From assembly GCF_004854025.1 (NCBI RefSeq), contig NZ_STGM01000003.1, positions 124,001 through 188,000 on the forward strand: DNA of 64,000 nucleotides, written 5' to 3'. Below are positions 48,474-63,900 of this stretch, piece by piece. A model generated the notes under the pieces. The model searched no databases. It saw only the letters and a program-made list of their open reading frames with translations, and had not been told where the DNA came from. The stretch comes from Microbacterium hydrothermale (lineage in GTDB: Bacteria; Actinomycetota; Actinomycetes; Actinomycetales; Microbacteriaceae). The stretch's first letter is position 1, and every line of letters starts with the position of its first letter. A program made the position numbers and the translations under genes.

Positions 48474-51400
48474 TCATCGGAAGTCCCGCGACGCGTGCGA
48501 GACCCCGACACGCAGGTCGGTGAACCCGTCGGCGACGACGTTGGTCACGCCCTCGACCGAGCGTTCGAGCATGCCGCGCACGATGAGGGCGGGAGATTCG
48601 CGGGCGACGCGGCGGTATCTGTTCCACACCCCCACCGAGCAGATGATGTTCATGAGGCCGTGCTCGTCTTCGAGGTTGAGGAAGGTGATTCCGGATGCCG
48701 TGGCCGGCCGCTGCCGATGGGTGACCAGTCCCGCGACCTCGATGCGTCGACCGGTCTCGAACGTCCGCAGTTCGCGCGAGGTGATCACCCCTCGGGCGTC
48801 GAGCGCGGAGCGGAAATGCGTCAACGGATGGTCGTCGGCCGAAAGCCCCGTCGCCCACAGGTCGGCGGCGAGCACCTCGTAGCTGGAGGCATCGGTGAAC
48901 AGCGGGGGCTGCACCGACACCATCGAGTCGGGGAGGAACTCCGGACGGTCCATCGCCGCTGAACCGGCGAGCCAGATCGCCTCGCGTCGCGTGTGCCCGA
49001 GGCACTCGAACGCCCCCGCCGTGGCGAGCGCCTCGATCTGCGCGGTGACGAGTTCCGTACGCCGCACGAGATCACGCAGGTCGCGGTAGGCGCCCCCGCT
49101 CTCGCGCTCCGCGACGATGCGTTCGGCGACCTTCACCCCGATCCCGGTCACCCCCGCGAGCCCCAACCGCACGGCGAAGCCCCCGTCACGACGGTGGGCG
49201 AGGGTCTCGTCGGGCGCGGTGGGATCGAACTCCCCGGTCGGGGGCTGGTCCCGGTGCGTACAGGTGTCGCGTCCGGTCGCGGCCCCGACGCCGCGGGGCG
49301 GAGTGGCCTGTCGGCCCGCCCCGCCGACCGGCACGCCCCGCGGGGGCCCTTCGGCGCCGCCGTCCGATGCTCCCGCCGGGGTCTCGGCATCCGCCCCCCT
49401 CGCCGGAACCGCGGTGTCGTCGAGCGGTTCGAGCGATGCCTGGACCTCCGAACGCAGCAGGTCGGGGCGGCGCACCACGACGCCGTGCCGGCGGGCGTCG
49501 GCGGTGAGGGTCGCGGGCGAGTAGAACCCCATGGGCTGCGCCCGCAGGAGTCCCGCCAGGAAGGCCGCCGGATAGTGCAGCTTGATCCACGAACTCGCGT
49601 AGACCAGGAGCGCGAACGACAGCGAGTGCGACTCCGCGAACCCGAAGTTGGCGAACGCCTGGATCTTGGCGTACAACTCGTCGGCGACCCGACCGACCAG
49701 GCCGTTCTCGGCCATGCCCGCGTACAGCGTCTCGCGAAGGGAGTCGATGCGCTCGAGCCCGCGCTTCGACCCCATCGCCCGTCGCAGAAGGTCGGCGTCT
49801 TCGGCGGAGCAGTTGCCCACGGCCACCGCCATCTGCATGAGCTGCTCCTGGAACACCGGGACGCCCATCGTGCGCGACAGCACCGGCTCGAGCTTGGGGT
49901 GAACGTAGGTGATCTCCTCCTGGCCGAGCTTGCGTCGCACGAAGGGGTGCACCGCCCCGCCCTGGATGGGCCCGGGTCGGATGAGGGCGATCTGCACGAC
50001 GAGGTCGTAGAACTTCCGCGGCTGCAGGCGCGGCAGCAGTCCCATCTGCGCGCGCGACTCCACCTGGAAGACCCCGATCGAGTCCGCGCGGCAGAGCATG
50101 TCGTACACGGCCTTCTCTTCTTTCGGCAGGGTCGACAGCTCCCACACCTCGCCCGTGGCATCCCGGATCAGGTCGAAGCAGTACTGCAGCGCCGCGAGCA
50201 TCCCGAGCCCCAGCAGGTCGAACTTCACCAGCCCCATCCACGCGGCGTCGTCTTTGTCCCACTGGATGACGGTGCGGTTCTCCATGCGCGCGTGCTCGAT
50301 GGGCACCACCTCGCCCACCGGTCGATCGGTGAGCACCATGCCACCGGAGTGGATGCCGAGATGCCGGGGCGCCTTCAACAGCTCGGAGGCGAACTCGATC
50401 ACCTGGTCGGGGATGTCGTGATCCGACCCGGTCTCGAGCGTCGCTCCCCACCGCTCGACCTGTTTCGACCAGGCGTCCTGCTGCCCCGGCGAGTGCCCCA
50501 GGGCACGGGCCATGTCGCGCACGGCGTTCTTCGGGCGGTACTGGATGACGTTCGCCACCTGGGCCGCGCGCTCGCGCCCGTACTCCTTGTACACCCACTG
50601 GATGATCTCTTCACGCCGGTCGGAGTCGAAGTCGACGTCGATGTCGGGTTCTTCGTCGCGCAGGCTCGACAGGAACCGCTCGAACGGCAGCTTGTAGAAG
50701 ATGGAGTCGACCGCGGTGATGTCGAGCAGGTAGCAGACGGCACTGTTGGCGGCCGATCCGCGCCCCTGACACAGGATGCCGCGGCGGCGGGCCTCGGCGA
50801 CGATGCCGTAGACGATCAGGAAGTATCCGGGGAAGTCCTTCATCTCGATCACCTCGAGTTCGCGCTCGATGCGGCGGCGGTCGTCGTCGGAGAGATTCGG
50901 GTACTTCCTCGGCACGGCCTCCCAGACCAGGTGCCGCAGCCACGACATGGGCGTGTGCCCCTCGGGCACCTTCTGCTTCGGCAGGGCCGGCTTGGCCCGG
51001 CGCAGGGGGAACGCGATCTCGTCGGCGAGCGCCACCGTGCGCGCCACCGCCCCCGGATACCGGGCGAAGCGCGCGGCCATCTCCACTCCCGAGCGCAGGT
51101 GCGCCCCGGCGTGGGCGGGGAGCCACCCGTCGAGCTCGTCGAGGCCGCGATTCGCGCGCACCGCGGCGACGGCGGCGGCCAGTACCTGCTTCTGCGGGGC
51201 GGCGTAGTGCACGTTGTTCGTGGCGAGGGTGGGGAGCCCCCGCTCGGCGGCGAGCGCGGCGAGCACGTCGTTGCGGCGCGAGTCGAGCGGGTCGCCCTGG
51301 TCCATCAGCTCGACGTGCACGGCCTCGGGTCCGAACAGCTCGACGAGGGTGTCGAGTTCGCGCGCCGCCCCCGCCGGCCCCTCGAACGCCAGGGCCTGCC

Positions 51401-52007
51401 GGACCGCGCCCTTGCGGCATCCGGTGAGCACCGCCCACTGGGGATCGCGTGGTCCTCCGGCGCGTTCGGCGAGATCTTCCAGGTCGTAGACCGGGCGTCC
51501 TTTCTCGGCGCCGCTGAGCTGCGCGTGGGTGATCGCGGCGGCGAGGCGGTGGTAGCCCTCTTCGCGTCGCGCGAGCACGAGCAGGTGCGAGCCGGTCGGA
51601 TCGGCCTCGCCGTTCTGCGGGCCGGGGAGTCCCAACGACAGCTCGGCCCCGAACACCGTCTTCACCGTGCGGGCCTCGGCCGCTTCGGCGAAGCGCACGA
51701 TGCCGTAGAACCCGTCGTGATCGGTGAGCGCGAGGGCGTGCAGACCGAGGCGTTCGGCCTCTTCGACGAGCTCTTCGGGCGAGGAGGCTCCGTCGAGGAA
51801 CGAGTACGACGAGTGCGCGTGCAGTTCGGCGTACGGCACGGTGTCGGTCGGACGCTCGATCGTCGGCGGCACGTAGGCGCCGCGCTTGTGCGACCACGCC
51901 GGGCTGTCACCGCCGTCGCCGTTCGGCGGAGCGCCGGTCGGACGTCGGGCGTCGCTGAGCAGACGTTCGAGCTCGGACCACTTCACCGGCGGATTGGTCC
52001 AGCCCAT
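48474..52007 (-). CDS. dnaE2: Error-prone DNA polymerase III alpha subunit
   Basis: 1177 residues. The PHP domain starts [22 protein letters not shown]. The polymerase has [20 protein letters not shown] and the catalytic aspartates in [15 protein letters not shown]. The C-terminal part has [42 protein letters not shown], typical of DnaE2, and an OB-like end. It is the translesion polymerase of the actinobacterial SOS mutasome and needs ImuB. An ~60-residue Pro/Gly/Arg-rich insert lies near 870-930. Transcribed after imuA and imuB. Confidence 0.97.
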   Translation of the reverse strand: [1177 protein letters not shown]

Positions 52008-52111
52008 CAGTGCACCTCCGCGTCGGACGCCGACGGCGCGGAGGCCCGCCTGCGGGTAGAGGACGAGCGGACAGAGGACGATCGGACAGAGGACGAGCGG
52101 CCGTCAGTCAT
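52007..52111 (-). CDS. Possible 34-residue coupling peptide between imuB and dnaE2
   Basis: The ATG at 52111 lies inside the imuB end and its TGA overlaps the dnaE2 ATG (TGATG), so ribosomes could pass from imuB to dnaE2 through it. The peptide MTDGRSSSVRSSSVRSSSTR continues to ASDAEVH and is coded by an 18-bp tandem repeat (GAGGACGAGCGGACA-like). It may be only a coupling leader with no protein role. It is not a proven gene. Confidence 0.35.
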   Translation of the reverse strand: MTDGRSSSVRSSSVRSSSTRRRASAPSASDAEVH

Positions 52112-53648
52112 AGCGCCCCTCCGCTCGCCATTCGCCCTCTTCGACGACGAGCAGCCAGGCGCCCCCATCGGCGTCGACGACCTGGAACCGGTGCGCCCGG
52201 CGTGCACGCAGGGGATCCCAGCCGCGCTCGCTGATCGGCCAGGGGCCCGCCCACTCCTGGATGCGTCGGCGGTGCCCGGCCGTTTCGAGCACCGCCGGCG
52301 GAGCGCTCAGCACGTCGCGCTCGCCCACGGTGACGGGTGCTCCCGCGATGTCGGTGACCCCCACCAGCCGGGGCTCGGGGTAGACGGTGGCCGGGAGGGG
52401 GTCGGGGAGGCTCCCCGGCCAGGGGCGCATGCGTTCTTTCGCGGTGACGGCCCGGTCGCCCCACGGCACCAGCACCTGCCGTTCGGCGAGCCATCGCCCT
52501 CCGCCGATGACCGGCGTCACCACCGCGCGGTGGCCGAGCATCGCCTGCACGCGCGAGAGCGCGTGGTGCACGCGCTCGTCGGGCCCCGCCCCGAACAGCC
52601 CCCGGGCGTGGTGCGCGGCGGCGTCGACGGCCTCGGGCTCGATGTGCACCCCCGCGACCCCGCTGCCGAAGATCCCCTGGGCGTCTTCGGCGAGCTGCCA
52701 GCGCACGCGGTCGACCACCCCGGCGGCGTCGAACGAACCGGGGTGCAACCACACGCGTTCGCTGCGTTCCCCCCGTTCGCCGGTCAGCACGACGCGCAGT
52801 TCGGTGCAGACGAGATCGTGCGCGCCGAGGCGCGCGATGAACTCCTCGGCCGCCACGCGCATGCCGAAGGCGATCTGGTCGGCCAGTTCGAGGGGAGGCT
52901 CGAAGGCGACGTCGCGGTGGAGCTCGGGCGGGGGCGTGCGCGGCTGCACCGGTTGCGAGTCGAGTCCCCCGGCCAGGGCGTGCAGGCGCACCCCCCTCTC
53001 GCCGAACCGCTCCCGCATCCTTTCGACCGGCAGCCCGGCCAGATCGCCGAGGGTGTGCACCCCTAGGCGCGAGAGGAGGCTGCCGAACTCGTCGTCGTCG
53101 AGGGTCGCGATCGACAGCGGCGCGAGGAAAGCCCCCGCCTCTCCGGGCGGCACGACGCGCACGGGCTCGTCGGCGCCGGCCGCGCGTGCCGCCTGCTCGG
53201 CGGTGAAGACGCCGTCGGCCACGCTCGCGCGCACACCGCCGTACCCGTCGTCGTCGAGCAGGCGGATCAGCGTGCGCGCCGCCTCGAGCTCGCCCCCGTA
53301 GTAGCGGGCCGGACCCCGCGCCCGCAGGGCGCACAGTCCCGGACGCACCACCTGCACGCCGGGGGCGTGCTCCTCGATGCGGGCGACGACGGGGGCGAAG
53401 GCGCGAGCGTCGCGCACGGGGTCGGCGGCCACCACCTGCAGTCCCGGGCACAGTGCCTGCGCATCACGTCGCTTCTGGCCGCGTCGCACGCCCTGCGCGC
53501 GCGCCGCCCAGGAGCACGCGACGACGAGGTTGTTCGCGAACACCGCGACGGCGGCATCCGGCCGGGGTGGGGACACCGCCTCGCGCACGAACGCCGTGAT
53601 CGGCCAGTCGGGGAACCACAGCACGAGGCTGCGCGTCGGCGCAGCCAT
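52104..53648 (-). CDS. imuB: ImuB-like Y-family polymerase homologue
   Basis: 514 residues from ATG 53648, overlapping the imuA stop (ATGA). The start LVLWFPDWPITAFVREA replaces the usual metal-binding DxD of Y-family polymerases, so it is catalytically inactive as is normal for ImuB. The little-finger and DNA-binding regions remain (LSRLGVHTLGDLAGLPVERMRERFGERGVRLHALAGG). ImuB links DnaE2 to the sliding clamp. The C-terminal ~170 residues are the ImuB-specific domain ending VVEEGEWRAEGRYD. Confidence 0.93.
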   Translation of the reverse strand: MAAPTRSLVLWFPDWPITAFVREAVSPPRPDAAVAVFANNLVVACSWAARAQGVRRGQKRRDAQALCPGLQVVAADPVRDARAFAPVVARIEEHAPGVQVVRPGLCALRARGPARYYGGELEAARTLIRLLDDDGYGGVRASVADGVFTAEQAARAAGADEPVRVVPPGEAGAFLAPLSIATLDDDEFGSLLSRLGVHTLGDLAGLPVERMRERFGERGVRLHALAGGLDSQPVQPRTPPPELHRDVAFEPPLELADQIAFGMRVAAEEFIARLGAHDLVCTELRVVLTGERGERSERVWLHPGSFDAAGVVDRVRWQLAEDAQGIFGSGVAGVHIEPEAVDAAAHHARGLFGAGPDERVHHALSRVQAMLGHRAVVTPVIGGGRWLAERQVLVPWGDRAVTAKERMRPWPGSLPDPLPATVYPEPRLVGVTDIAGAPVTVGERDVLSAPPAVLETAGHRRRIQEWAGPWPISERGWDPLRARRAHRFQVVDADGGAWLLVVEEGEWRAEGRYD

Positions 53649-54364
53649 CAGCCCACCGCCCGCACGGGGAAGGTCTCGCGCTCGCGCGGGACGAGGCGCT
53701 CGGCGGGGGCGCCCAGCAGTTCGATCGAACCGTCGGCCGCGGGGAGCATCATGCGGGCGCGACGGGGGTGGGGCGAGCGGCGACTGCTGACCGACACCGT
53801 GAGCTCGCGACCGGCGAGATACCCGTGCCCCTGCCCGAGTCCCGCCCATCGCGGATCGGCCACGTCGATCACGGCCTCGGCCTGCGGCCAGGCGCCCTGC
53901 ACCAGCAGCACCGACCCGCGGTCGCGCAGGCGCGCGGCCAGTCGGGTGGTCTCGGCCCCTCCCCGCGCGGCCGCGGATACGGCCGGCGGGCGCACGGCCA
54001 CCACCGGCAGCACCTCGGTGATCGTCGCGGTCACCGCGAGCCAGCGCGGACCCGGGTCGGGGATGAAGACGAGCCGGTCGAGGTCGAGGCCGTACTTCTC
54101 GGCGGCCTCGGCCCCCAGCTCGGGCATGCCGATGACCCCGCACCAGGCGCCGTCTTGAGAGGGGCGCGCCATCAGCGCCAGCAGCAGGGACGCCGACCGG
54201 GCGAGGGCGTACGCCGAGCCCGAGCGCAACCCTCCCCCGGGCAGAAGCGAGGAGAATGCCGGATGCGTCGGGAGCACGGGGGCGTCCATGCGCCGCCCCT
54301 GCATGCGCTCGAGGCGATCGCGCAGCGCGGTGATGTCGGGTACGGCCTGCACCTGGTCTCTCAC
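53648..54364 (-). CDS. imuA: ImuA'-like RecA-fold protein
   Basis: 238 residues from GTG 54364 (GTGAGGG upstream); GTG 54376 and 54382 are alternatives. LPGGGLRSGSAYALARSASLLLALMARPSQ resembles the RecA ATPase start, but the P-loop lysine is missing (GGGLRSGSA), as in other ImuA' proteins that structurally support the mutasome. It is the first gene of imuA-imuB-dnaE2 and directly follows a LexA box. Confidence 0.85.
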   Translation of the reverse strand: MRDQVQAVPDITALRDRLERMQGRRMDAPVLPTHPAFSSLLPGGGLRSGSAYALARSASLLLALMARPSQDGAWCGVIGMPELGAEAAEKYGLDLDRLVFIPDPGPRWLAVTATITEVLPVVAVRPPAVSAAARGGAETTRLAARLRDRGSVLLVQGAWPQAEAVIDVADPRWAGLGQGHGYLAGRELTVSVSSRRSPHPRRARMMLPAADGSIELLGAPAERLVPRERETFPVRAVG

Positions 54365-54388
54365 GATCGCCCTCACTCCCACAGGTTA

Positions 54389-54400
54389 GAACATGTGTTC
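54389..54400. promoter_or_regulatory. LexA (SOS) box for imuA-imuB-dnaE2
   Basis: GAACATGTGTTC is a perfect palindrome of the GAACNNNNGTTC form used by actinobacterial LexA. It is 25 bp from the imuA start and may also touch the divergent GT2 promoter. DNA damage should induce the cassette. Confidence 0.88.
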
Positions 54401-54542
54401 TACTCTCTCAATCCCTGTGGGTCGAAGATACGATCGACCTCCGACATCGCTCCGATCGCCTCCCGCCATCCCGGAGGGCGTACCCTCCCGCGTCGAGGAC
54501 GTGCGCGTCAAGGATCGACGGCGGACCCCGTCTTCAGAGAAG

Positions 54543-56573
54543 ATGAAAAGAGACGGAAGGTTCCCCCCATTGGTCGTCGAAACAACGATCCGTCGCGATG
54601 ATCTGCGACGGCAGGCCCGGCGTCGTGACGTCTCGCGCGTACGACGCCTGGCCTTGGTGCGCGTGATCGTCATCCTGTCGGCGGCGACGGGGATCAACTA
54701 CATCACCTGGCGCTGGCTGGCGTCGGTGAACTGGGAGTCCTGGTGGATCGCGGTCCCGCTCGTCCTCGCCGAGACGTACAGCCTCATCGATTCCCTCCTC
54801 TTCGGCCTCGGCGCGTGGCGGCTGCGCGAGCGTCACGACGCTCCCCCGCTGCGCCACGACGTGACGGTCGACGTGCTCGTGACGACCTACAACGAGCCCC
54901 TCGACCTCGTCATGGAGACCGCCCGTGCCGCCAAGGCGATCCGCTATCCGCACGAGACCTGGATCCTCGACGACGGCGACCGCGCCGAGCTGCGCGTCCT
55001 CGCCGAAGCCGAGGGCATCGGCGTCATCACCCGTTCGGAGGCGTGGCGCGACCGCCCGCGCCACGCCAAGGCCGGCAACCTCAACAACGCTCTGATGGTC
55101 ACCGAGGGCGAGTTCTTCCTCATCCTCGACGCCGACCAGATCCCCTCCCCCGACATCCTCGACCGCACGCTCGGCTGGTTCGAAGACGACCGCGTCGCCC
55201 TCGTGCAGACGCCGCAGTGGTTCACCAACGTGCCGGCCAGCGATCCGCTCGGCAGCCAGGCCCCGCTGTTCTACGGCCCGATCCAGCAGTCCAAGGACGG
55301 GTGGAACGCCGCCTTCTTCTGCGGCTCCAACGCGATTCTGCGCCGCGAGGCGCTCATGCAGCTCGGCGTCTCGCGCTACGTCGGCGAGGTCACGCTCGCC
55401 GTCAACCGCGGCATCCGCTCCTCGCGTCGCGTTCTCGCCCGCGCGCGGCGCGAGCACGCCTCCGACGCCCGCATCGTGGCATCCCTCGATCGCGTCTCGG
55501 TCGCGCTCGACGACCTCAAGGCGGGGATCGCGCGCGGCGACGCCCTCGCCGACCTCACCTACGCCTTCCAGCGGCAGATCATGGCGGTGCGCCGCGAGCT
55601 CGCCGACCAGGACATCGCCGAGGTGCGCGCCGAACTCGCCGAACTGGCCGAGGTCACGGGCGACCCGGCCGCCCTCGCCGCTCTCGACGACCTCGCCCTC
55701 GAGGCCCTCGGCGAGCGCAGCCTGTCGCCGCTGGCCGCGGTGGAGTCGGTCAGCATGCTCGTGGAGTCCTTCGACGTCGGGCGCGAAGAGGAGGCGCAGG
55801 CGATCATGCCCCTCGCCACGATCTCGGTCACCGAGGACATGGCCACCTCGATGCGCCTGCACGGCCTCGGCTGGAAGTCGGTGTACCACGACGAGGTGCT
55901 CGCGAAGGGCCTCGCCCCCGAGGACCTGCCCACGATGCTCACCCAGCGCCTGCGGTGGGCGCAGGGGACGATGCAGGTGATGTTCCGCGAGAACCCGCTC
56001 GTGCAGAGGGGGATGAGCTGGGGCCAGCGCCTGATGTACTTCGGCACGATGTGGAGCTACCTCTCCGGTTTCGCGGCCCTCGTGTACGTCGCCGCCCCCG
56101 TGCTGTACCTGTCGTTCGGGGTCATGCCCGTGCAGGCGTGGAGCGTGGACTTCTTCGCCCGCTTCATCCCGTTCTTCGTCATCAACCAGCTGCTCTTCCT
56201 CGTCGTGGCGAACGGACGACCGACCTGGCGGGGCGCGCAGTACTCGCTCGCCCTGTTCCCGGTGTGGATCCGCTCCGTCACGAGCGCCTTCGACAACGTC
56301 TACCGCGGCCGTTCGCTCGGCTTCTCGGTGACTCCGAAGACCCGCTCGCTCGAGAACCGCCCCCGGTGGGACCTGGTCAAGCCGCAGCTGTGGGTGATGG
56401 GCGCGCTCGTCGCCTCGCTCGGCGTCGTCACGATCCGCTACGCCGTCGGCCAGGCCGAGGGCATCGCGCCGCTCGTCAACATCGCCTGGGTCCTCTACGA
56501 CCTCGCCGTCTTCAGCATCATCATCCGTGCGGTGCTGTACTCCGCCTCCGACCACCTACCGAAGGGTTACTGA
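54543..56573 (+). CDS. Processive GT2 glycosyltransferase (cellulose-synthase-like)
   Basis: 676 residues from ATG 54543; a TTG at 54570 with GGAAGG upstream is also possible. Two helices precede the catalytic domain (VDVLVTTYNEP, ILDDGD, LILDADQIPSPD), then SVTEDMATSMRLHG and the QRLRWAQG (QxxRW) motif, and five C-terminal helices. So it is a BcsA/synthase-type enzyme exporting a polysaccharide through the membrane. Between DADQ and TED lies an extra ~170 residues of helical sequence (about 280-430). There is no PilZ domain. First gene of a four-gene operon with STAS and RsbW-like genes. Confidence 0.92.
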   Translation: MKRDGRFPPLVVETTIRRDDLRRQARRRDVSRVRRLALVRVIVILSAATGINYITWRWLASVNWESWWIAVPLVLAETYSLIDSLLFGLGAWRLRERHDAPPLRHDVTVDVLVTTYNEPLDLVMETARAAKAIRYPHETWILDDGDRAELRVLAEAEGIGVITRSEAWRDRPRHAKAGNLNNALMVTEGEFFLILDADQIPSPDILDRTLGWFEDDRVALVQTPQWFTNVPASDPLGSQAPLFYGPIQQSKDGWNAAFFCGSNAILRREALMQLGVSRYVGEVTLAVNRGIRSSRRVLARARREHASDARIVASLDRVSVALDDLKAGIARGDALADLTYAFQRQIMAVRRELADQDIAEVRAELAELAEVTGDPAALAALDDLALEALGERSLSPLAAVESVSMLVESFDVGREEEAQAIMPLATISVTEDMATSMRLHGLGWKSVYHDEVLAKGLAPEDLPTMLTQRLRWAQGTMQVMFRENPLVQRGMSWGQRLMYFGTMWSYLSGFAALVYVAAPVLYLSFGVMPVQAWSVDFFARFIPFFVINQLLFLVVANGRPTWRGAQYSLALFPVWIRSVTSAFDNVYRGRSLGFSVTPKTRSLENRPRWDLVKPQLWVMGALVASLGVVTIRYAVGQAEGIAPLVNIAWVLYDLAVFSIIIRAVLYSASDHLPKGY

Positions 56574-56574
56574 C

Positions 56575-56910
56575 ATGCTCCAGGTCGACATCGATTCCCG
56601 CACCGACGGAACGGTCGTGACCCCGCGAGGCCGGCTGACGATGGTGTCGGCGAAGTCGTTCCGCGAAACGGTGACCGCCGAGATCACGCGCGGCGCGGGC
56701 GACATCGTGGTCGTCGACCTGTCGCAGACCGAGTTCGTCGACTCGTCGGGACTCGGCGCCCTCGTGGCGTGCCTGAAGACCGCCCGTCAGGCGGGGGGCG
56801 ATCTGCGACTGGCCGCACCGAGCGAACAGGTGACCATGGTCCTCGGTCTCACCAACCTCGACCGCGTGCTGCGTCCCCGCCCGAGCGTCGACGAGGCCCT
56901 CCGTGACTGA
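56575..56910 (+). CDS. STAS-domain anti-sigma-factor-antagonist-like protein
   Basis: 111 residues from ATG 56575, just after the synthase stop. The STAS core is VVTPRGRLTMVSAKSFRETV, IVVVDLSQTEFVDSSGLGALVACLKTARQAG and LRLAAPSEQV. The DSSGL segment contains the serine phosphorylated in SpoIIAA/RsbV. In partner switching, the dephosphorylated STAS protein binds the kinase encoded next. The two overlap by eight bases. Here no sigma factor gene is adjacent, so the target of the switch is unknown. Confidence 0.93.
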   Translation: MLQVDIDSRTDGTVVTPRGRLTMVSAKSFRETVTAEITRGAGDIVVVDLSQTEFVDSSGLGALVACLKTARQAGGDLRLAAPSEQVTMVLGLTNLDRVLRPRPSVDEALRD

Positions 56911-57319
56911 CGGCGACGCGCGGCGCTCGCTCGACGCGGCCGTCGCCCCGGCGAGCCTCGAGGCCATCTTCGACCTGCTGGCCGGATGGTGGGACGAGGT
57001 GGGCGAGGTGACGCCGTCGACGCGGTTCGGCTTCGAGACCGCGGTGATCGAGATCGCCGGCAACATCGTCGAGCACTCGCGCGGGGACTCCGATGCGCGA
57101 CGGTTCACGCTCGACCTCTTCGCCGATGCGCAGAGGCTGGTCGCGACGTTCCGCGACGACGGCGATCCTCCCCTGCTCGATCTCGCGTCGGTGCGCATGG
57201 CGGATGCCGAGGAGGAGAGCGGCCGCGGCCTCGCCCTCGCCAACGCGGGGGTAGACGACGTCGACTTCCGCCGCGAGGGCGATCGCAACGTGTGGACATT
57301 GGAGACGAGAAGGACGTGA
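56903..57319 (+). CDS. RsbW/SpoIIAB-like ATP-binding serine kinase
   Basis: 138 residues from GTG 56903. The GHKL ATPase elements are present: FETAVIEIAGNIVEHSR (N box), FRDDGDPP (G1) and GRGLALANAGVDDVDF (G2). As in RsbW, it would phosphorylate the STAS partner and sequester another protein. Its stop overlaps the start of the GH26-OpgC gene (GTGA), and there is no sigma factor in the operon. Confidence 0.9.
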   Translation: MTDGDARRSLDAAVAPASLEAIFDLLAGWWDEVGEVTPSTRFGFETAVIEIAGNIVEHSRGDSDARRFTLDLFADAQRLVATFRDDGDPPLLDLASVRMADAEEESGRGLALANAGVDDVDFRREGDRNVWTLETRRT

Positions 57320-59889
57320 CGCGCGCGGTGCGACGGATCGCGGCGGCCGTGGGGGCCGCCGCCGCGCTCCTCCTCCTCACCGGCGCTCCCGCTCTCGCCG
57401 CCGCGACACCCGCGGCGGTGACCGTCGCGGGCGCGACCACCGAATCCCCGACTCCGACGGCGGATCCGGAGCCGACCCCGACGCCCGCCGCCCCCGCCAC
57501 CGACGGGGTGCGCTTCGGGCCCGAGCTGAACTGGGGCGACGACGGCCCCGACGGGTACCGCACGCGCCTCGGCGAGACGCCCGCGATGTACAGCGTGCGC
57601 GTGTCGTATCCGCTCGACGCCCGCTCGATCTCGGAGTGGCAGCACGCCGCCCTGCAGGTCGCTGCGCAGGGGGCGTCCCTGGTGCTGACCCTCGAGCCCT
57701 CGGTCGAACTCGCGGCCCTCACCGAGGCCGACGCCGCCGACCTCAACACCCGGCTCGAGCGCTACCGCTCGCAGTACGGCACCGAGCAGTTCGTGCGCTT
57801 CGCCCCCGAGATGAACGGCTCCTGGGTCTCGTGGGGTCAGCAGCCCACCGCTTACGTGAGCGCGTTCGAGACGGTGGCCGCCGCGGTGCACGCGGGTTCG
57901 TCCGCGGCCGAGACGGTGTGGAGTCCCTCCTACGGCGCCGGATACCCCTTCGAGCGCGCCGACGGCCGCCTCGACGCCATCACCGCGCGCGACCGCGTCG
58001 CGATCGACACCGACGGCGACGGCCTGTTCACCGAGGCCGACGACCCCTACGGCCCGTACTTCCCGGATGCCGACTCCGTCGACCGCGTGGGCCTGTCGCT
58101 GTACTACTTCGGCAAGGGCGAGTCGGCCGCGGCGGCCGGCCGCGACGTCCCGCTCGAGCTCAACACCGCTCCGCAGGACGGCGAGGTCGCCGCCCGCCTC
58201 GACGAGCGGTGGGGGTACACGACCGCGCCGCGCGCGTCGTTCTACGACCGGTTCGCCGTGGGCGAGGGCAAGACCCTCCTCCTCGACACCGGCGCCCTGT
58301 ACGACTTCGGGCGCGACGGCGATTCCGAGCTGTCGGTGAAACGCGGATGGTGGACGCAGGTGCTCGCCGAGCTGGACCGGCATCCCCTCATCTCCGGGGT
58401 GACGTGGCTCGAGGTCGTGCGCGACGAGGCCGAGGCCGGCGGACGGCAGGTCGACTGGCGAGCGACGGCGAACGGAGAGGTGGCCTCCGCCCTGCGCAAT
58501 GACCTCGTCTCGACCGGACTCATCCGCTGGGGGCCGGTCTCCGACGTCGTCACCCCCGCTCAGGGCTCCGCCGCGACCGTGCAGGTGCGCCAGGCCGGGG
58601 CCGATCCGAACGAGGAGATGAACTGGATCACCGGCAGCGCTGCCGTCCTCGCGGTGGCGTTCCTGGCATCCGGGATCATCGGCCGGGCCCTGCCGAAGTG
58701 GCGCTACGACGACACCTCGGCCAGTCGCGACCTGCGCATCGACATGGTGCGCGGCTTCATCATCGTGGTCGTGGTCGTCACGCACATCGAGGTGACGAGC
58801 CCGTTCGCCTACGCCTCCCTGAAGGCGATCGGCGCGATCACCGGGGCCGAGCTGTTCGTGCTGCTCAGCGGCATCGTGCTCGGGATGGTCTTCCCCGCGG
58901 CGGTCGCGCGGGCCGGCGAGTGGGGCGCCGCGGTGGCGGCGTGGGGACGCGCGCGCAAGCAGTACGTCGTCGCGCTCGCGGTGATCCTGCTGATCTTCGC
59001 GATCGGCTTCGTGCCCTTCGTCGACGCCTCCGCGATCACGACGTTCACCGACCGCGGAACGGGCGAGGGCGGCACGGGCGACAGCGGCCGCGTGTACGAC
59101 CTGTATCCCAACGGCGAGCGACTGCTCGACTATCCGCCCCCGTGGTACGCGGTGCGCCAGTTCCTCCTGCTCGAGATGGGGCCCTGGCCGTTCAACATCA
59201 TGGGCCTGTTCGTGGTGCTGAGCCTGGCCTACCCCGCTCTGATGTGGCTCATCAAACGCCGCCTGTGGTGGCTGGTGCTCGCGCTCAGCTGGGGCGTCTA
59301 CGCCCTGCACGGCTTCGCGCCCGAGGCCCTGCGCCTCCCCTCGCAGTTCGACGCGGTGTTCCCCCTCGCGCTGTGGCAGGTGCTGTTCACCCACGGCCTG
59401 GTCATCGGCTTCTACCGCCGGCAGATCATCCGGGCCCTCACCTCGCTCCCGGGCAAGATCGGGGTGGGGATCTTCGTCGTCGGCTATGCCGGCATCCTGG
59501 TGTACCTCTGGGCGGGTCAGGCCTACGGCTTCACCCCCGTGCCCTTCCCCGCCGACCTCTACGCGAACCTGTACGACTCCGGCTATCAGCGCATCTTCCT
59601 CGAGTGGGGGCGACTGCTCGACCTGCCCCTCGTCCTGGTGTGCAGCTACGCGGTGCTGACGGTCGCGTGGAAGCCGCTCGAGAAGAGCATGGGGTGGCTG
59701 TGGATCCCCCTCGGCCAGGCCAGCCTGTACGTGTTCATCGTGCACGTGTTCTTCGTGCTCGCCGTGGCGAACATCCCGGGGCTCGACCGCGGCAGCCTGT
59801 GGCAGGGCACGCTCATCCACGCGGCGGTGATCGGGATCATCTTCGCCATGGTCCGCTCGCGCTTCCTTTTCCGCGTGATCCCCCGCTGA
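57316..59889 (+). CDS. Secreted GH26-like domain fused to an OpgC-type membrane acyltransferase
   Basis: 857 residues from GTG 57316 (GAGAAGGA upstream). Residues 1-28 are a signal peptide, then a Thr/Pro-rich linker. About 60-380 resembles GH26 (beta-mannanase-like) with RFAPEMNGSWVSWG, whose Glu is the acid/base position, and VWSPSYGAGYPFE. From about 430 to the end is OpgC-like: RDLRIDMVRGFIIVVVVVTH followed by about ten helices. OpgC succinylates periplasmic glucans. The protein probably trims and/or acylates the polysaccharide made by the GT2 synthase. The two domains are in one frame with no stop; the fusion appears genuine. Confidence 0.82.
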   Translation: MTRAVRRIAAAVGAAAALLLLTGAPALAAATPAAVTVAGATTESPTPTADPEPTPTPAAPATDGVRFGPELNWGDDGPDGYRTRLGETPAMYSVRVSYPLDARSISEWQHAALQVAAQGASLVLTLEPSVELAALTEADAADLNTRLERYRSQYGTEQFVRFAPEMNGSWVSWGQQPTAYVSAFETVAAAVHAGSSAAETVWSPSYGAGYPFERADGRLDAITARDRVAIDTDGDGLFTEADDPYGPYFPDADSVDRVGLSLYYFGKGESAAAAGRDVPLELNTAPQDGEVAARLDERWGYTTAPRASFYDRFAVGEGKTLLLDTGALYDFGRDGDSELSVKRGWWTQVLAELDRHPLISGVTWLEVVRDEAEAGGRQVDWRATANGEVASALRNDLVSTGLIRWGPVSDVVTPAQGSAATVQVRQAGADPNEEMNWITGSAAVLAVAFLASGIIGRALPKWRYDDTSASRDLRIDMVRGFIIVVVVVTHIEVTSPFAYASLKAIGAITGAELFVLLSGIVLGMVFPAAVARAGEWGAAVAAWGRARKQYVVALAVILLIFAIGFVPFVDASAITTFTDRGTGEGGTGDSGRVYDLYPNGERLLDYPPPWYAVRQFLLLEMGPWPFNIMGLFVVLSLAYPALMWLIKRRLWWLVLALSWGVYALHGFAPEALRLPSQFDAVFPLALWQVLFTHGLVIGFYRRQIIRALTSLPGKIGVGIFVVGYAGILVYLWAGQAYGFTPVPFPADLYANLYDSGYQRIFLEWGRLLDLPLVLVCSYAVLTVAWKPLEKSMGWLWIPLGQASLYVFIVHVFFVLAVANIPGLDRGSLWQGTLIHAAVIGIIFAMVRSRFLFRVIPR

Positions 59890-59901
59890 GCTCCGGGGAG
59901 C

Positions 59902-59946
59902 ACGGATGCCGGGACCCGCGCGTCTGCGCGCGGACCCGGCATCCGT
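59902..59946. terminator. Hairpin between the polysaccharide operon and the PP2C gene
   Basis: Long inverted arms (ACGGATGCCGGGACCCGCGC and its near-inverse) end the operon and the convergent phosphatase gene. The arms again contain GGATGCC. Confidence 0.85.
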
Positions 59947-59951
59947 ATCGG

Positions 59952-61109
59952 TCAGTGCACCGACAGTACGACGGCCGTGACGTCGTCGTCGACCTCGTGC
60001 GTCGAGACCTTCAGGGCGAGCTCGTCGAAGAAGCCACGCGGGTCGGCGGCCGCCCGCAGGTCGTCGCCGATCATGCGGAGGCTCTCGAGGGTGGAGTCGT
60101 ACGCGTCGAGCGCCCCGTCGGAGACGCTCACGAGCAGGTCACCCCGTCCGACCCGCACGCGGCCGGGCTCCCACTCGACGTCCGCGGGCCGGAGCCCGAG
60201 CGGCAGGTTGCGGGAGTCGAGCCGCTCGCTCGTTCCGTCGGCGTGCAGCACGAGGGTGAGCCCGTGCCCGGCGTCGACGAAGTCGACGGTGCCCGAGGCG
60301 GCGTCCACGACCGCGTGGAACACCGTCGCGAACACGTCGCGGTATCGACCGTCGGAGCGGGCCTCGGCCTCCACCGACAGCATGGCCTCGACCGGCTGCA
60401 TGTCGCGTCGCGCCTGCAGTGCTCCCAGCAGTGCCTCGGCGACGGCCCCGGCCGCCTCCCCCTTGCCCATGACGTCGGCGAGGGTGAGCACCACCCTGCC
60501 GCCCACCTGCTGCCATCCGCTGCTGTCGCCGCTGACGACTCCGTGCGGGATCGCGAGGGATGCCAGGCGCACGCCGTCGGCGCCGTCCAGGCCGTCGCGC
60601 GTCGGGGCGGGACCGGCCGCTGCGGCGTGCCCCTCGTCGTCGCTCTGGCGCACCTCGGCCTGCGCCCAGCGTCCGAACTGTTCGAGAGTGGCGCGCTGCG
60701 CGGCGTCGAGGGAGCGCGTGTCGGAGTCGAGGAGGCAGAGCGTGCCGACGGCCTCCCCGTCGTCGGTGCGCAGGGGGAAGCCGGCGTAGAACCGCATCCC
60801 GTACTCCGTCACCGCGGCGATGTCGCGGAACCGCTCGTCGGCGGTGGCGTCGTCGACCTCGAGCAGGCCGTCCTGTTTGACGGTCTCGCCGCAGAACACC
60901 GCCTCGAGCGGCGATCGACCGAAGCGCGGCCCCTCGGGCTGCGACTTCGTGTAGATCTCGTCGGCGTCGACGATGTTCACCAGGGCGTAGTCGACGTCGA
61001 ACAGTTCGCGCGCGAGACGGGTGATCCGGTCGAAGCGCTCCTCGGGCGGGGAGTCCAGCAGGCCGGTCCGCTCAGCGGCCGTCGCGGGGGCGGGAGTGTC
61101 GGTGGTCAT
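59952..61109 (-). CDS. GAF-domain PP2C (SpoIIE/RsbU-like) phosphatase
   Basis: 385 residues from ATG 61109 (GGAAGGACGACC upstream). About 15-155 is a GAF sensor (YALVNIVDADEIYTKSQ; VGTLCLLDSDTRSLD). The PP2C domain has IPHGVVSGDSSGWQQ, LTLADVMGKGEAAG, VDFVDAGHGLTLVLHADG, LLVSVSDGALDAY and DDDVTAVVLSVH, retaining the metal-binding aspartates. RsbU/SpoIIE phosphatases dephosphorylate STAS proteins, so it is the natural third member for the STAS and RsbW-like proteins encoded opposite. It is convergent, not co-transcribed, with them. Confidence 0.9.
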   Translation of the reverse strand: MTTDTPAPATAAERTGLLDSPPEERFDRITRLARELFDVDYALVNIVDADEIYTKSQPEGPRFGRSPLEAVFCGETVKQDGLLEVDDATADERFRDIAAVTEYGMRFYAGFPLRTDDGEAVGTLCLLDSDTRSLDAAQRATLEQFGRWAQAEVRQSDDEGHAAAAGPAPTRDGLDGADGVRLASLAIPHGVVSGDSSGWQQVGGRVVLTLADVMGKGEAAGAVAEALLGALQARRDMQPVEAMLSVEAEARSDGRYRDVFATVFHAVVDAASGTVDFVDAGHGLTLVLHADGTSERLDSRNLPLGLRPADVEWEPGRVRVGRGDLLVSVSDGALDAYDSTLESLRMIGDDLRAAADPRGFFDELALKVSTHEVDDDVTAVVLSVH

Positions 61110-61303
61110 CGAAGGTCGTCCTTCCGCGTGAGGCATCTCGCCGCGCTGTTCCGCGGCGACCGGCACTCTCTCGCGTACGCGGACGGAGCTCGACTCGAAG
61201 ACTCCCCCGCGTCGTCGCGGAATCGATCGCGCCGACATTCCGACCCTATCGAGGGGATCCGCGGCGAGGGCGATTCTGCGCAAGACGGCCACCGGGGCCT
61301 CGG

Positions 61304-62071
61304 CTACAGCAACCGCAGATCGGCCTCCATCGCCTCGACCTCGCGGAGCATCGCGGGCACGAACCGCTCGCGCACCACCTCGTCGGCGTGACGGCCGCTG
61401 CTCATCGACACGTTCACGGCCGCCGCGACTTCTCCGTCGCGCGAGCGCAGGGGGACGGCCACCGAGGTCAGTCCCGGCTCGAGCTCGCCGTCGACCATCG
61501 CCCATCCGCGCTCGCGCACCCGCTGCAGCTCGGCGCGCACGGCGTCCGGGTCGGTGAGGGTCTGCGGCGTGTGGGCGGGCAGCGGCGCCGAGAGGACGGC
61601 ATCCACGATCCGTTCGTCCGCGTGCGCGAGCAGCACCCGCCCCATGCTCGTCGCCGTCGCGGGGAAGCGCGTGCCCACGGTGATGCCCACCGACATGATG
61701 CGCCGCAGCGGCACGCGGGCGATGTAGACGATGTCGGAGCCGTCGAGCACGGCCGCCGAGGCGCTCTCGTCGGTCGCGCGCGAGAGCGCCTCGAGGTGCG
61801 GTTGCACGACGTCGGGGAGGGTGGATGCCGACAGGTAGCTGAATCCGAGCTCGAGCACGCGCGGGGTCAGCGTGAACAACCGCCCATCGCTGCGCACGTA
61901 CCCCAGGCTCTCGAGCGTGCGGAGGAACCGGCCGGCCGCGGCGCGCGTGACGTCGGCGCGGCGGGCGACGTCACTGAGCGTCAGCGAACGGTTCTGCGCG
62001 TCGAAGGCGCGGATGACGGCGAGGCCTCGCGCGAAGGCCTGCACGGTCTCGGGGGCACCCTGCTCGTCCAC
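61304..62071 (-). CDS. IclR family regulator (PcaR/PobR-like)
   Basis: 255 residues from a GTG. The winged helix is LTLSDVARRADVTRAAAGRFLRTLESLGYV, then the IclR effector domain with DGSDIVYIARVPLRRIMSVGITVGTRFPATATSMGRVLLA. It follows the pcaF gene on the same strand, 20 bp after its stop, as in other actinobacterial beta-ketoadipate clusters where PcaR controls pca genes. Effector is predicted (3-oxoadipate) by analogy only. Confidence 0.88.
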   Translation of the reverse strand: MDEQGAPETVQAFARGLAVIRAFDAQNRSLTLSDVARRADVTRAAAGRFLRTLESLGYVRSDGRLFTLTPRVLELGFSYLSASTLPDVVQPHLEALSRATDESASAAVLDGSDIVYIARVPLRRIMSVGITVGTRFPATATSMGRVLLAHADERIVDAVLSAPLPAHTPQTLTDPDAVRAELQRVRERGWAMVDGELEPGLTSVAVPLRSRDGEVAAAVNVSMSSGRHADEVVRERFVPAMLREVEAMEADLRLL

Positions 62072-62091
62072 CGCCTCACCCTATCCGCGCG

Positions 62092-63258
62092 TCAGCGCTC
62101 GAGGACGACGGCGAGGCCCTGACCGACCCCGATGCAGATCGCGGCGACCGCGACCCCTCCGCCCCGGCGCTTCAGCTCGTGCGCGGCCCGGGCGATGATG
62201 CGGCCGCCCGAGGCGCCCAGCGGGTGGCCGATCGCGATGGCACCGCCGTTCTCGTTGAGGAGCGCGGGGTCGAGGGCCGTCCACAGCTTCGCGCACGCGA
62301 GGGTCTGCGAGGCGAACGCCTCGTTCAGTTCGACGAAGCTCACCTCGTCCCAGGACCGGCCCGCGCGCGCGAGAGCCCGGTTCGCGGCCTCGACGGGGGC
62401 GACGCCGAACACGTCGGGGTCGTTGCCGAACGCGGCCCGCCCGGCGATGCGGGCGAGGGGCTCGGCGTCCAGCGCCCCCTCGGCGCCCAGCAGCACGGCG
62501 GAGGCGCCGTCGTTGATCGGCGAGGAGTTGCCCGCGGTGACCGTGCCGTCGGCGCGGAACGCCGGGCGCAGCCCCGCGAGCACCTCGGCGGTTGAGTCGT
62601 CGCGGATCCCCTCGTCGCGCGCGAGGGCGTGCCCCTCGACCTGCACGATCTCGTCGGCGAAGCGCCCCTCGGCCCATGCCCTGGCGGCGAGGCGGTGACT
62701 GCGCGCGGCGAAGGCGTCCTGCTCCTCGCGCGAGATGTCGTGGATCTCGGCGAGCTTCTCGGCGCTCTCGCCGTTCGAGATCGTCCAGTCCTTCCGCAGG
62801 CGCGGGTTGGTCATGCGCCAGCCGATCGAGGTGTTCCACATCGTCTGGTTCGCCGCGGGGAAGGGCCGTGGGCTCTTCTCGACCACGAAGGGGGCGCGGG
62901 TCATCGACTCGACGCCGCCCGCGAGGATCACCTCGGCGTCGCCCGCCTCGATCGCGCGCGAGCCCTGGATCACGGCATCCAGAGACGATCCGCAGAGGCG
63001 GTTGATGGTCGTTCCGGGCACGGACGACGGGAAGCCCGCGAGGAGTGCCCCGAAGCGCGCCACGTTGCGGTTGTCCTCGCCCGCCTGGTTCGCATCGCCG
63101 AAGATCACGTCCTCGATGCGGGCGGGGTCGATCCCGGTGCGCTCGACGACGGATGCCATCACGGTGGCCGCGAGGTCGTCGGGGCGCACGTCGGCGAACG
63201 CTTTGCCGTGCCGCGCGAAGGGCGTGCGGACGGCGTCGTAGACGAAGGAAGCGGGCAT
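62092..63258 (-). CDS. pcaF: 3-oxoadipyl-CoA thiolase
   Basis: 388 residues from ATG 63258. TTINRLCGSSLDAVIQGSRAI holds the nucleophile Cys; NEAFASQTLACAKLW, GGAIAIGHPLGASGGRI and CIGVGQGLAVVLE complete the thiolase active site. It cleaves 3-oxoadipyl-CoA to acetyl-CoA and succinyl-CoA. Position between pcaJ and the IclR gene fixes its role. It is a homologue of the phenylacetate-operon thiolase at 42083. Confidence 0.94.
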   Translation of the reverse strand: MPASFVYDAVRTPFARHGKAFADVRPDDLAATVMASVVERTGIDPARIEDVIFGDANQAGEDNRNVARFGALLAGFPSSVPGTTINRLCGSSLDAVIQGSRAIEAGDAEVILAGGVESMTRAPFVVEKSPRPFPAANQTMWNTSIGWRMTNPRLRKDWTISNGESAEKLAEIHDISREEQDAFAARSHRLAARAWAEGRFADEIVQVEGHALARDEGIRDDSTAEVLAGLRPAFRADGTVTAGNSSPINDGASAVLLGAEGALDAEPLARIAGRAAFGNDPDVFGVAPVEAANRALARAGRSWDEVSFVELNEAFASQTLACAKLWTALDPALLNENGGAIAIGHPLGASGGRIIARAAHELKRRGGGVAVAAICIGVGQGLAVVLER

Positions 63259-63261
63259 GGG

Positions 63262-63900
63262 TCAGGACTCCAGTTCCAGGCCGAGGAGCTGCTCGATCTC
63301 GGCGTGCGTGTTGTCGCCGAACAGCTCCCGCACGCGGAAGCCGTCGGAGGTGACGTCGAAGACGCCGTGGTCGGTGTAGACGCGCGAGACGCACCCGACG
63401 CCCGTCAGCGGGTAGCTGCAGGATGCGACCAGCTTGGGCTCGCCGCCCTTGGTGAGCAGGTCGGTCATGACGTAGACGTCCTTCGCGCCGATCGCGAGGT
63501 CCATCGCCCCGCCGACCGCGGGGATCGCCCCGGGCTCGCCGGTCGACCAGTTCGCGAGGTCGCCGCCGGCCGACACCTGGAACGCCCCCAGCACGCAGAC
63601 GTCGAGGTGTCCGCCGCGCATCATCGCGAAGGAGTCTGCGTGGTGGAAGTACGCCGCCCCGGCGAGCGCGGTGACGGGCTGCTTCCCGGCGTTGATGAGG
63701 TCGGGGTCGATCCGGCCGCGCTCGGGGGCCGGACCCATGCCGAGCATGCCGTTCTCGGTGTGCAGCACGATCTCGAGCCCCTCGGGCAGGTAGTCGGCGA
63801 CGAGGGTGGGCGCGCCGATGCCGAGGTTGACCACGGCGCCCTCGGGGATGTCCGATGCCACGCGCGCGGCGAGCTCGGAGCGCGAGATGCGGGTGGTCAT
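63262..63900 (-). CDS. pcaJ: 3-oxoacid CoA-transferase subunit B
   Basis: 212 residues from ATG 63900, overlapping the preceding gene's stop (ATGA). It begins ISRSELAARVASDIPEGAVVNLGIGAPTLVADYLPEGLEIVLHTENGMLGMG, where HTENGMLG contains the catalytic Glu of subunit B. It transfers CoA from succinyl-CoA to 3-oxoadipate together with subunit A. The gap to pcaF is three bases. Confidence 0.94.
   Translation of the reverse strand: MTTRISRSELAARVASDIPEGAVVNLGIGAPTLVADYLPEGLEIVLHTENGMLGMGPAPERGRIDPDLINAGKQPVTALAGAAYFHHADSFAMMRGGHLDVCVLGAFQVSAGGDLANWSTGEPGAIPAVGGAMDLAIGAKDVYVMTDLLTKGGEPKLVASCSYPLTGVGCVSRVYTDHGVFDVTSDGFRVRELFGDNTHAEIEQLLGLELES

Follow-up and report, generated by a model that had tools for sequence, protein, structure and literature searches.

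Partner switching is a textbook form of transcriptional control: the protein families on which it is built, STAS, RsbW and PP2C, classically act on sigma factors. The present analysis concerns a set of such genes attached to a polysaccharide synthase, found in a 64,000-nucleotide stretch of Microbacterium hydrothermale DNA (contig NZ_STGM01000003.1, positions 124,001 to 188,000 of the forward strand), indicated below as the window. With the SpoIIAA-SpoIIAB-SpoIIE and RsbV-RsbW-RsbU switches of Bacillus, these genes share the same three families, the phospho-serine motif and the E/N and G2 residues of the kinase; they differ in that the window genome lacks a cognate sigma factor of the SigB/F type, and in that the window-type switch is coupled to a polysaccharide synthase and, in relatives, fused with it.

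Partner switches with other outputs have been described. In Vibrio fischeri, the STAS protein SypA and the serine kinase/phosphatase SypE govern polysaccharide-dependent biofilm, which is promoted by unphosphorylated SypA (PMC10120452, PMC8256260); SypA action is placed below transcription by the former report, and at the transcription of biofilm genes by the latter. In the available parts of these reports the direct targets of SypA are still called unknown, as are those of HmpV in PMC6495340, and a synthase-embedded form of the Syp system is not mentioned. HmpV is the STAS component of the cyanobacterial switch HmpU-HmpV-HmpW of Nostoc punctiforme, where it provides the output to an undefined effector (PMC6495340). 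The locus tags of hmpU/hmpW (Npun_R5135/R5134) and hmpV (Npun_F5169), as given in the accessible text of PMC10581220, are separated, unlike the compact clusters of synthase, STAS, phosphatase and kinase genes found in our survey; by locus tags, the only basis compared, an identification of hmpUVW with the locus described here is not supported. In the HptB-HptR-HsbA/HsbD and SiaABCD systems of P. aeruginosa, and in BgrSTUWV-BgrR of S. meliloti, the STAS or STAS-like component acts on an enzyme, a diguanylate cyclase, so that polymer control passes through cyclic di-GMP (c-di-GMP) (PMC8457831). Anabaena all4160, finally, is a glycosyltransferase with a STAS domain (PMC8256260); compared by description only, in the available part of that paper, its STAS domain is N-terminal and no kinase or phosphatase is described with it. 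Among the matches listed in a largely open-access literature search, no STAS/RsbW/PP2C switch attached to a polysaccharide synthase could be recognised. Switches acting on sigma factors, on diguanylate cyclases and on undefined targets are known; the locus suggests a new case, in which a polysaccharide synthase would be the direct target.

The locus is composed of five genes. The first encodes a processive polysaccharide synthase of glycosyltransferase family 2 (GT2), BcsA/CesA-like and without PilZ domain (54543..56573, + strand, 676 amino acids); after a gap of 1 base it is followed by an RsbV/SpoIIAA-like STAS-domain protein (56575..56910, +, 111 amino acids), whose gene overlaps by 8 bases that of an RsbW/SpoIIAB-like HATPase serine kinase (56903..57319, +, 138 amino acids). 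The kinase gene, in turn, overlaps by 4 bases the GTG-started gene of an OpgC secreted/membrane protein (57316..59889, +), and a GAF-SpoIIE(PP2C) phosphatase gene (59952..61109, - strand) is convergent, at 62 bases from the OpgC gene. This arrangement had been described in a first-pass annotation, made from the letters of the DNA; its coordinates, the tight coupling of the genes, the phosphatase facing the operon and the presence of all three switch elements, each with Pfam matches above cut-off, are borne out here. The same annotation had proposed that the switch acts on the synthase rather than on transcription, a proposal which the nested and fused forms and the co-occurrence of insert and switch, reported below, now support; it had missed the missing PilZ domain and an insert of about 145 amino acids in the catalytic domain of the synthase. 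The best named homologue among the matches listed, from Microbacterium thalli, is 81% identical and features the same five-gene layout. The layout is more than a chance arrangement, as it recurs across families and phyla. The STAS protein, the kinase and the phosphatase may thus be seen as a partner-switching module, whose output would be the activity of the adjacent synthase and not a sigma factor; to this reading, based on sequence comparison, we assign a probability of roughly 0.6.

The synthase matches Pfam Cellulose_synt (2.9e-18) and several GT2 families above cut-off, while its score with the NCBIfam CelA equivalog TIGR03030 (343 bits) is under the cut-off of 699. The catalytic columns DDG, DAD, TED and QRLRW are conserved, and the AlphaFold2 model (mean confidence, pLDDT, 87) has E. 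coli BcsA as its top PDB match. BcsA cellulose synthases, which are the closest solved structures, share fold and catalytic motifs with the window protein; in contrast to them, the latter has no PilZ domain (no PilZ among its Pfam matches at E<=0.01), carries an insert in the catalytic domain and has switch genes attached. The segment from CGSN..RR to TED spans 175 amino acids, versus 28 in canonical synthases; the helical insert responsible, delimited by motif spacing and by the model, corresponds to residues 277-420 (55371..55802, +), between these two motifs. Helices are predicted at 268-304, 309-331, 335-372, 376-391 and 396-410, with confidence dropping to 58-69 in blocks over residues 371-420. 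Within the insert, S395-P396 is invariant in 28 of 28 aligned rows.

Synthases with such an insert were collected from a 398-genome Microbacteriaceae sample, from named genomes, from a sample of one more family (match in 36 of 331 genomes), taken as Mycobacteriaceae in a broad sense because several of its loci match loci named as Gordonia, Williamsia, Prescottella or Dietzia, and from a further family belonging to the order (match in 8 of 186 genomes). The candidates scored per genome were 2 for Microbacteriaceae, 10 for the phylum, and 3 and 6 for the two further families, so that the numbers of matching genomes are lower bounds. Of the 162 long-insert loci, 143 have a STAS gene, 153 a kinase and 140 a PP2C phosphatase within set distances; all three are present in 137. 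These loci include same-species copies (14 of the 192 total rows are >=98% identical to another), and merging synthases at >=98% identity leaves 148 loci, with STAS in 130, kinase in 139, PP2C in 127 and all three in 124; of the neighbourhood whose conservation had been suggested as a check, the switch genes are thus kept beside the synthase in most non-redundant loci. When synthases are merged at 80%, the figures for the remaining 76 loci are 73, 70, 69 and 67. The complete set of three genes is found in 57/69 loci from Microbacteriaceae, 42/55 from named genomes, 30/30 from the Mycobacteriaceae group and 8/8 from the other family. Loci cut by a contig end (L145 and L154 among them) were scored as lacking the genes not seen; short-flank copies of other loci (L001-L030) were excluded, and 7 of the 37 Mycobacteriaceae-group places were without a locus.

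GT2 synthases without insert behave differently: neither STAS nor kinase is found next to any of 30 controls, and PP2C next to one. The controls were chosen, not exhaustive (6 + 20 insert-less Microbacteriaceae places and 4 loci of the named-genome set), and for 20 of them insert-less status rests on the insert profile giving no match; one locus picked as a control (L101) proved to bear both insert and module, and was counted accordingly. The module is sporadic, as matches to the insert profile turned up in 2 of 396 genomes across the phylum, window genome included, with 10 candidates scored per genome and the count again a lower bound. Its hosts are bacteria of soil and plants, mycobacteria from the environment and cyanobacteria, the phyla represented being Actinomycetota, Cyanobacteriota and metagenome-assembled genomes (MAGs) labelled Spirochaetota and Chloroflexota. 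A MAG labelled Roseiflexus (L155) contains a homologue 54% identical to the window synthase, from either horizontal transfer or mis-binning.

A physical link between switch and synthase is seen in some relatives. In cyanobacterial synthases the insert sits at another site of the GT2 domain, between DDG and HAKAGN, where the segment measures 142-159 amino acids, or 281-284 in four loci, versus 36 in canonical proteins. In 4 of the 17 cyanobacterial loci (L176, L182, L184, L186) an RsbW-like HATPase_c_2 domain is nested within the GT2 catalytic domain, as recognised by Pfam (9e-15 to 6e-19) in all but L184, where profile and sequence were used. Two pairs tested gave identities of 52% and 43% between the nested domain and a separate kinase from other cyanobacterial clusters. 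The AlphaFold2 model of L186 (pLDDT 86) places it between insert helices 166-204 and 347-399; when this model is compared to known structures, the GT2 domain fills the match list, and no RsbW structure is among the matches listed. A separate kinase was not detected in any of these four loci, the stretch of L176 stopping about 0.3 kb past the synthase. On the tree, the nested state requires two changes. Unfused cyanobacterial clusters (L171, L175 and L181 were scanned) are composed of GT2 synthase, STAS, a receiver-SpoIIE phosphatase and kinase; overall, the 17 loci feature STAS in 15 cases, kinase in 11, including the four nested ones, and PP2C in 11. A degenerate STAS domain is found in the synthase's own frame in L160 (Bifidobacterium tibiigranuli) and in L096 and L097 (Microbacteriaceae); these matches are weak (19-24 bits), and Pfam, applied to L160 as the sole fused locus, gives a STAS match that stays under the cut-off (E 0.0008). 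Taken with the survey counts, the coupling of the switch to the synthase is well supported by comparative sequence evidence.

The three switch proteins retain the features expected for their families. The STAS protein matches Pfam STAS (4.3e-19) and NCBIfam ant_ant_sig above its cut-off; residues D56, S57, S58 and G59 are invariant in 28 of 28 aligned rows, and Ser57 (codon 56743..56745, +), the phospho-acceptor predicted by conservation of the D-S*-S-G motif, is the residue which, from SpoIIAA/RsbV, we take to be phosphorylated. The kinase matches HATPase_c_2 (2.3e-13, above cut-off) and is the best RsbW-type domain match in the whole genome; RsbW 6m36 is the solved structure nearest to its family profile. 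E50, N54 and the GRG motif are invariant in 26 of 26 aligned rows; in the broader set, the catalytic E and N are kept in 162 of 164 kinases, and GRG (G2 box) in 162 of 164. The phosphatase features SpoIIE (4.5e-26) and GAF (4e-17) domains, both above the Pfam cut-off. In relatives, the input domain of the phosphatase may be GAF, a response-regulator receiver or PAS, with one MASE1-like match below cut-off, a variety expected if different signals feed one output. In 108 of the 162 long-insert loci, the synthase is preceded on its own strand by the nearest PP2C gene. Seven loci (L075, L081, L090, L094, L159, L161, L166) have kinase and PP2C domains in a single open frame, SypE-like; the first four of them also have a second STAS copy.

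Further indications come from loci where the system has decayed. The phospho-acceptor serine is kept in 150/150 loci with both STAS and kinase (137/137 when non-redundant). Nine relatives have a short insert, the CGSN..RR-to-TED segment being 130-138 amino acids long, versus 170-200 in long-insert loci; the part they lack, defined by the gap between BLAST segments, corresponds to residues 349-396, approximately, of the window synthase (55587..55730, +). None of the nine has a kinase or phosphatase in the cluster, all keep a STAS domain, mostly degenerate, and in all but L167 the serine is lost (TASG, TAAG, TPAG, TPSG, SPAG, DWSG); the cyanobacterial L170 is likewise without it. For the nine serine-less loci, eight genomes could be searched: a kinase was not found in six, while those of L168 and L170 have one elsewhere. 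Eight kinase-less clusters, conversely, have STAS with its serine; a kinase-like match was found elsewhere in six of the seven genomes searched (not that of L167), three of these matches, all cyanobacterial, being weak (40-46 bits). On the starred branches of the tree, which does not include L167, the short insert has at least two origins. Where the kinase is lost, then, the phosphosite tends to be lost as well, and so does part of the insert in two or more independent lineages, STAS remaining with the synthase. Such joint loss, with STAS retained, favours STAS as the part touching the synthase, and the lost segment of the insert as related to the kinase; residues 349-396 or so, including S395-P396, are therefore a candidate kinase-docking segment.

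According to the mechanism proposed, the kinase would phosphorylate the STAS protein on Ser57, and the PP2C phosphatase, gated by its sensory domain, would take the phosphate off; the unphosphorylated STAS protein would dock on the synthase, with the kinase or through it, at the helical insert, and polymer synthesis would be licensed. In this way the module would take the place that PilZ and c-di-GMP have in the control of BcsA. That kinase and phosphatase set STAS phosphorylation is expected from what is known of their families; an action of STAS and kinase on the synthase is what we infer from the comparisons above. As suggested by SypA and SiaC, and in line with the serine-less lineages, STAS would be ON when unphosphorylated, and the effect of the switch presumably falls on catalysis. 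A wider proposal, which we regard as evenly balanced, is that these proteins form a class of synthases having a partner-switching phospho-relay as their own control, in place of PilZ/c-di-GMP. The relay would engage through the inserts at two sites of the catalytic domain, before TED in Actinomycetota and in the Spirochaetota and Chloroflexota MAGs, and between DDG and HAKAGN in Cyanobacteriota; with the kinase nested in the catalytic domain, as in some cyanobacteria, the regulatory subunit would be phosphorylated by the very enzyme it regulates. An attachment of this kind would give a concrete answer to what STAS proteins such as SypA and HmpV can bind, and would mean that cellulose-type synthases can be gated in a second way, beside c-di-GMP and PilZ; for structural work, the nested cyanobacterial form has the advantage of being a single polypeptide.

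A number of observations weigh against a switch acting on the synthase. The joint losses are few events: the serine changes three times on the tree, and sign tests give p values of 0.25-1, their directions agreeing but with at most three informative pairs, so that significance is not reached. L167 keeps the serine although its cluster, the only part looked at, shows no kinase, and so does L092, in whose genome a kinase was not found; in L168 and L170, on the other hand, it is lost although their genomes hold a kinase. Fourteen Curtobacterium-type loci (7 from Curtobacterium and 7 from one other genus) have the kinase but neither STAS nor PP2C beside the synthase; the genomes of this type that were searched, 7 of 7, all contain a strong STAS homologue with an adjoining kinase at another place. 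For these second STAS-kinase pairs (L264-L270), no PP2C was found within the 9-10 kb examined. Three Arthrobacter loci (L124, L126, L137) carry the insert with no STAS or kinase nearby; in two of these genomes a kinase is present at another place, and in the third STAS and kinase accompany a further synthase locus, L139. This third genome, Arthrobacter ISL-30, thus contains two synthases with the insert: L139 has two STAS-kinase pairs nearby, L137 has none. Within the stretch examined, kinase is not seen in 6 of the 17 cyanobacterial loci, and STAS in 2. Finally, mean-field direct coupling analysis of paired GT2, STAS and kinase columns (132 loci, effective number of sequences 70) gave no interprotein signal that could be read, the top intraprotein scores themselves not being contact-like.

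Some of these observations fit a different arrangement, in which the classical topology is kept and only the target is new: the kinase would clamp the insert and block the synthase, and unphosphorylated STAS would merely remove the kinase, as RsbV does from RsbW. The nesting of the kinase domain in cyanobacterial synthases, the coincidence of kinase loss with loss of a piece of the insert, and the Curtobacterium-type loci, which keep the kinase and not STAS beside the synthase, would all be accounted for. The short-insert clusters, however, are difficult to fit: all nine, without kinase, retain STAS adjacent or fused, eight of them without the phospho-serine, and a pure kinase antagonist would be useless there. 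The kinase clamp is accordingly held to be possible, if rather unlikely.

For a transcriptional switch, which would use a sigma factor from another locus and have the synthase operon as its mere location or regulon, there is the classical role of the three families, as well as the presence of sigma factors of the extracytoplasmic function (ECF) type in the genome. In the window genome (99.5% complete), nine sigma-70 region-2 matches are found, one primary (RpoD-like) and eight ECF-like, one of which is weak; no match to a sigma factor of the SigB/F/G type reaches the cut-off in the genome, so that the absence of a sigma factor, reported for the locus by the first-pass annotation, extends genome-wide for the SigB type. 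Near the synthases, sigma-like frames are found in 9 of those loci of the whole set that exceed 8.9 kb in length (148 loci), at 0.8 to 8.7 kb, when eight of the genome's nine sigma frames are used as queries, and, in addition, switch domains are nested in or fused to the synthase itself. A sigma target is therefore considered very improbable. Two findings had been named beforehand as contrary to the control of the synthase, a sigma partner elsewhere and poor conservation next to the synthase; neither turned up, as the switch genes are conserved beside it and no sigma factor of the SigB/F type is found. Besides the STAS protein of the window, the genome has one further STAS domain, in a 706-amino-acid frame, probably a transporter. 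A promoter scan of 54300-61300 returned no sigma-70-type site, which carries no weight either way, as shuffled sequence gave 0.2 on average.

An indirect control, of the Hsb, Sia and Bgr kind, would have STAS regulate a diguanylate cyclase, and c-di-GMP the synthase. Non-sigma switches acting on diguanylate cyclases are established (PMC8457831), but the synthase has no PilZ match, no GGDEF match is found in the five proteins, to which the GGDEF search was confined, and the fusions observed are to the synthase itself; such a route is considered very improbable at this locus.

The fourth gene of the operon encodes a protein with a membrane acyltransferase-type domain (Pfam OpgC_C, 5.8e-51, above cut-off). 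It had been labelled GH26-OpgC: the OpgC part of the label holds, while no Pfam GH26 match is found at E<=1 in the N-terminal region. The nearest solved proteins for this region are 'Endoglucanase H' entries, at E 0.18-0.21; Endoglucanase H is presumably a GH26 enzyme, but, with so weak a resemblance and without a Pfam match, the GH26 identity is not confirmed. Among the 121 long-insert loci with wide flanks, a set which leaves aside Mycobacteriaceae loci with 1.5-kb flanks, an OpgC gene (>100 bits) is found in just 55: the protein is a lineage-specific accessory, present with the synthase only in some lineages, and may acylate or trim the polymer. That the switch genes are hitch-hikers, co-expressed with the synthase and acting on another process or on the OpgC protein, which does share their operon in the window, is hardly credible, given an OpgC gene in less than half of the loci as against switch genes in most, the nested and fused forms, and the lack of STAS or kinase next to canonical GT2 controls.

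The genes on either side of the locus are known to us by sequence reading. Upstream and divergent, those at 48474-54382 (- strand) look like an ImuA'-ImuB-DnaE2 mutagenic-repair cassette; downstream, those at 61304-63900 (- strand) look like an IclR-type regulator, a thiolase and a beta-ketoadipate-type CoA-transferase subunit.

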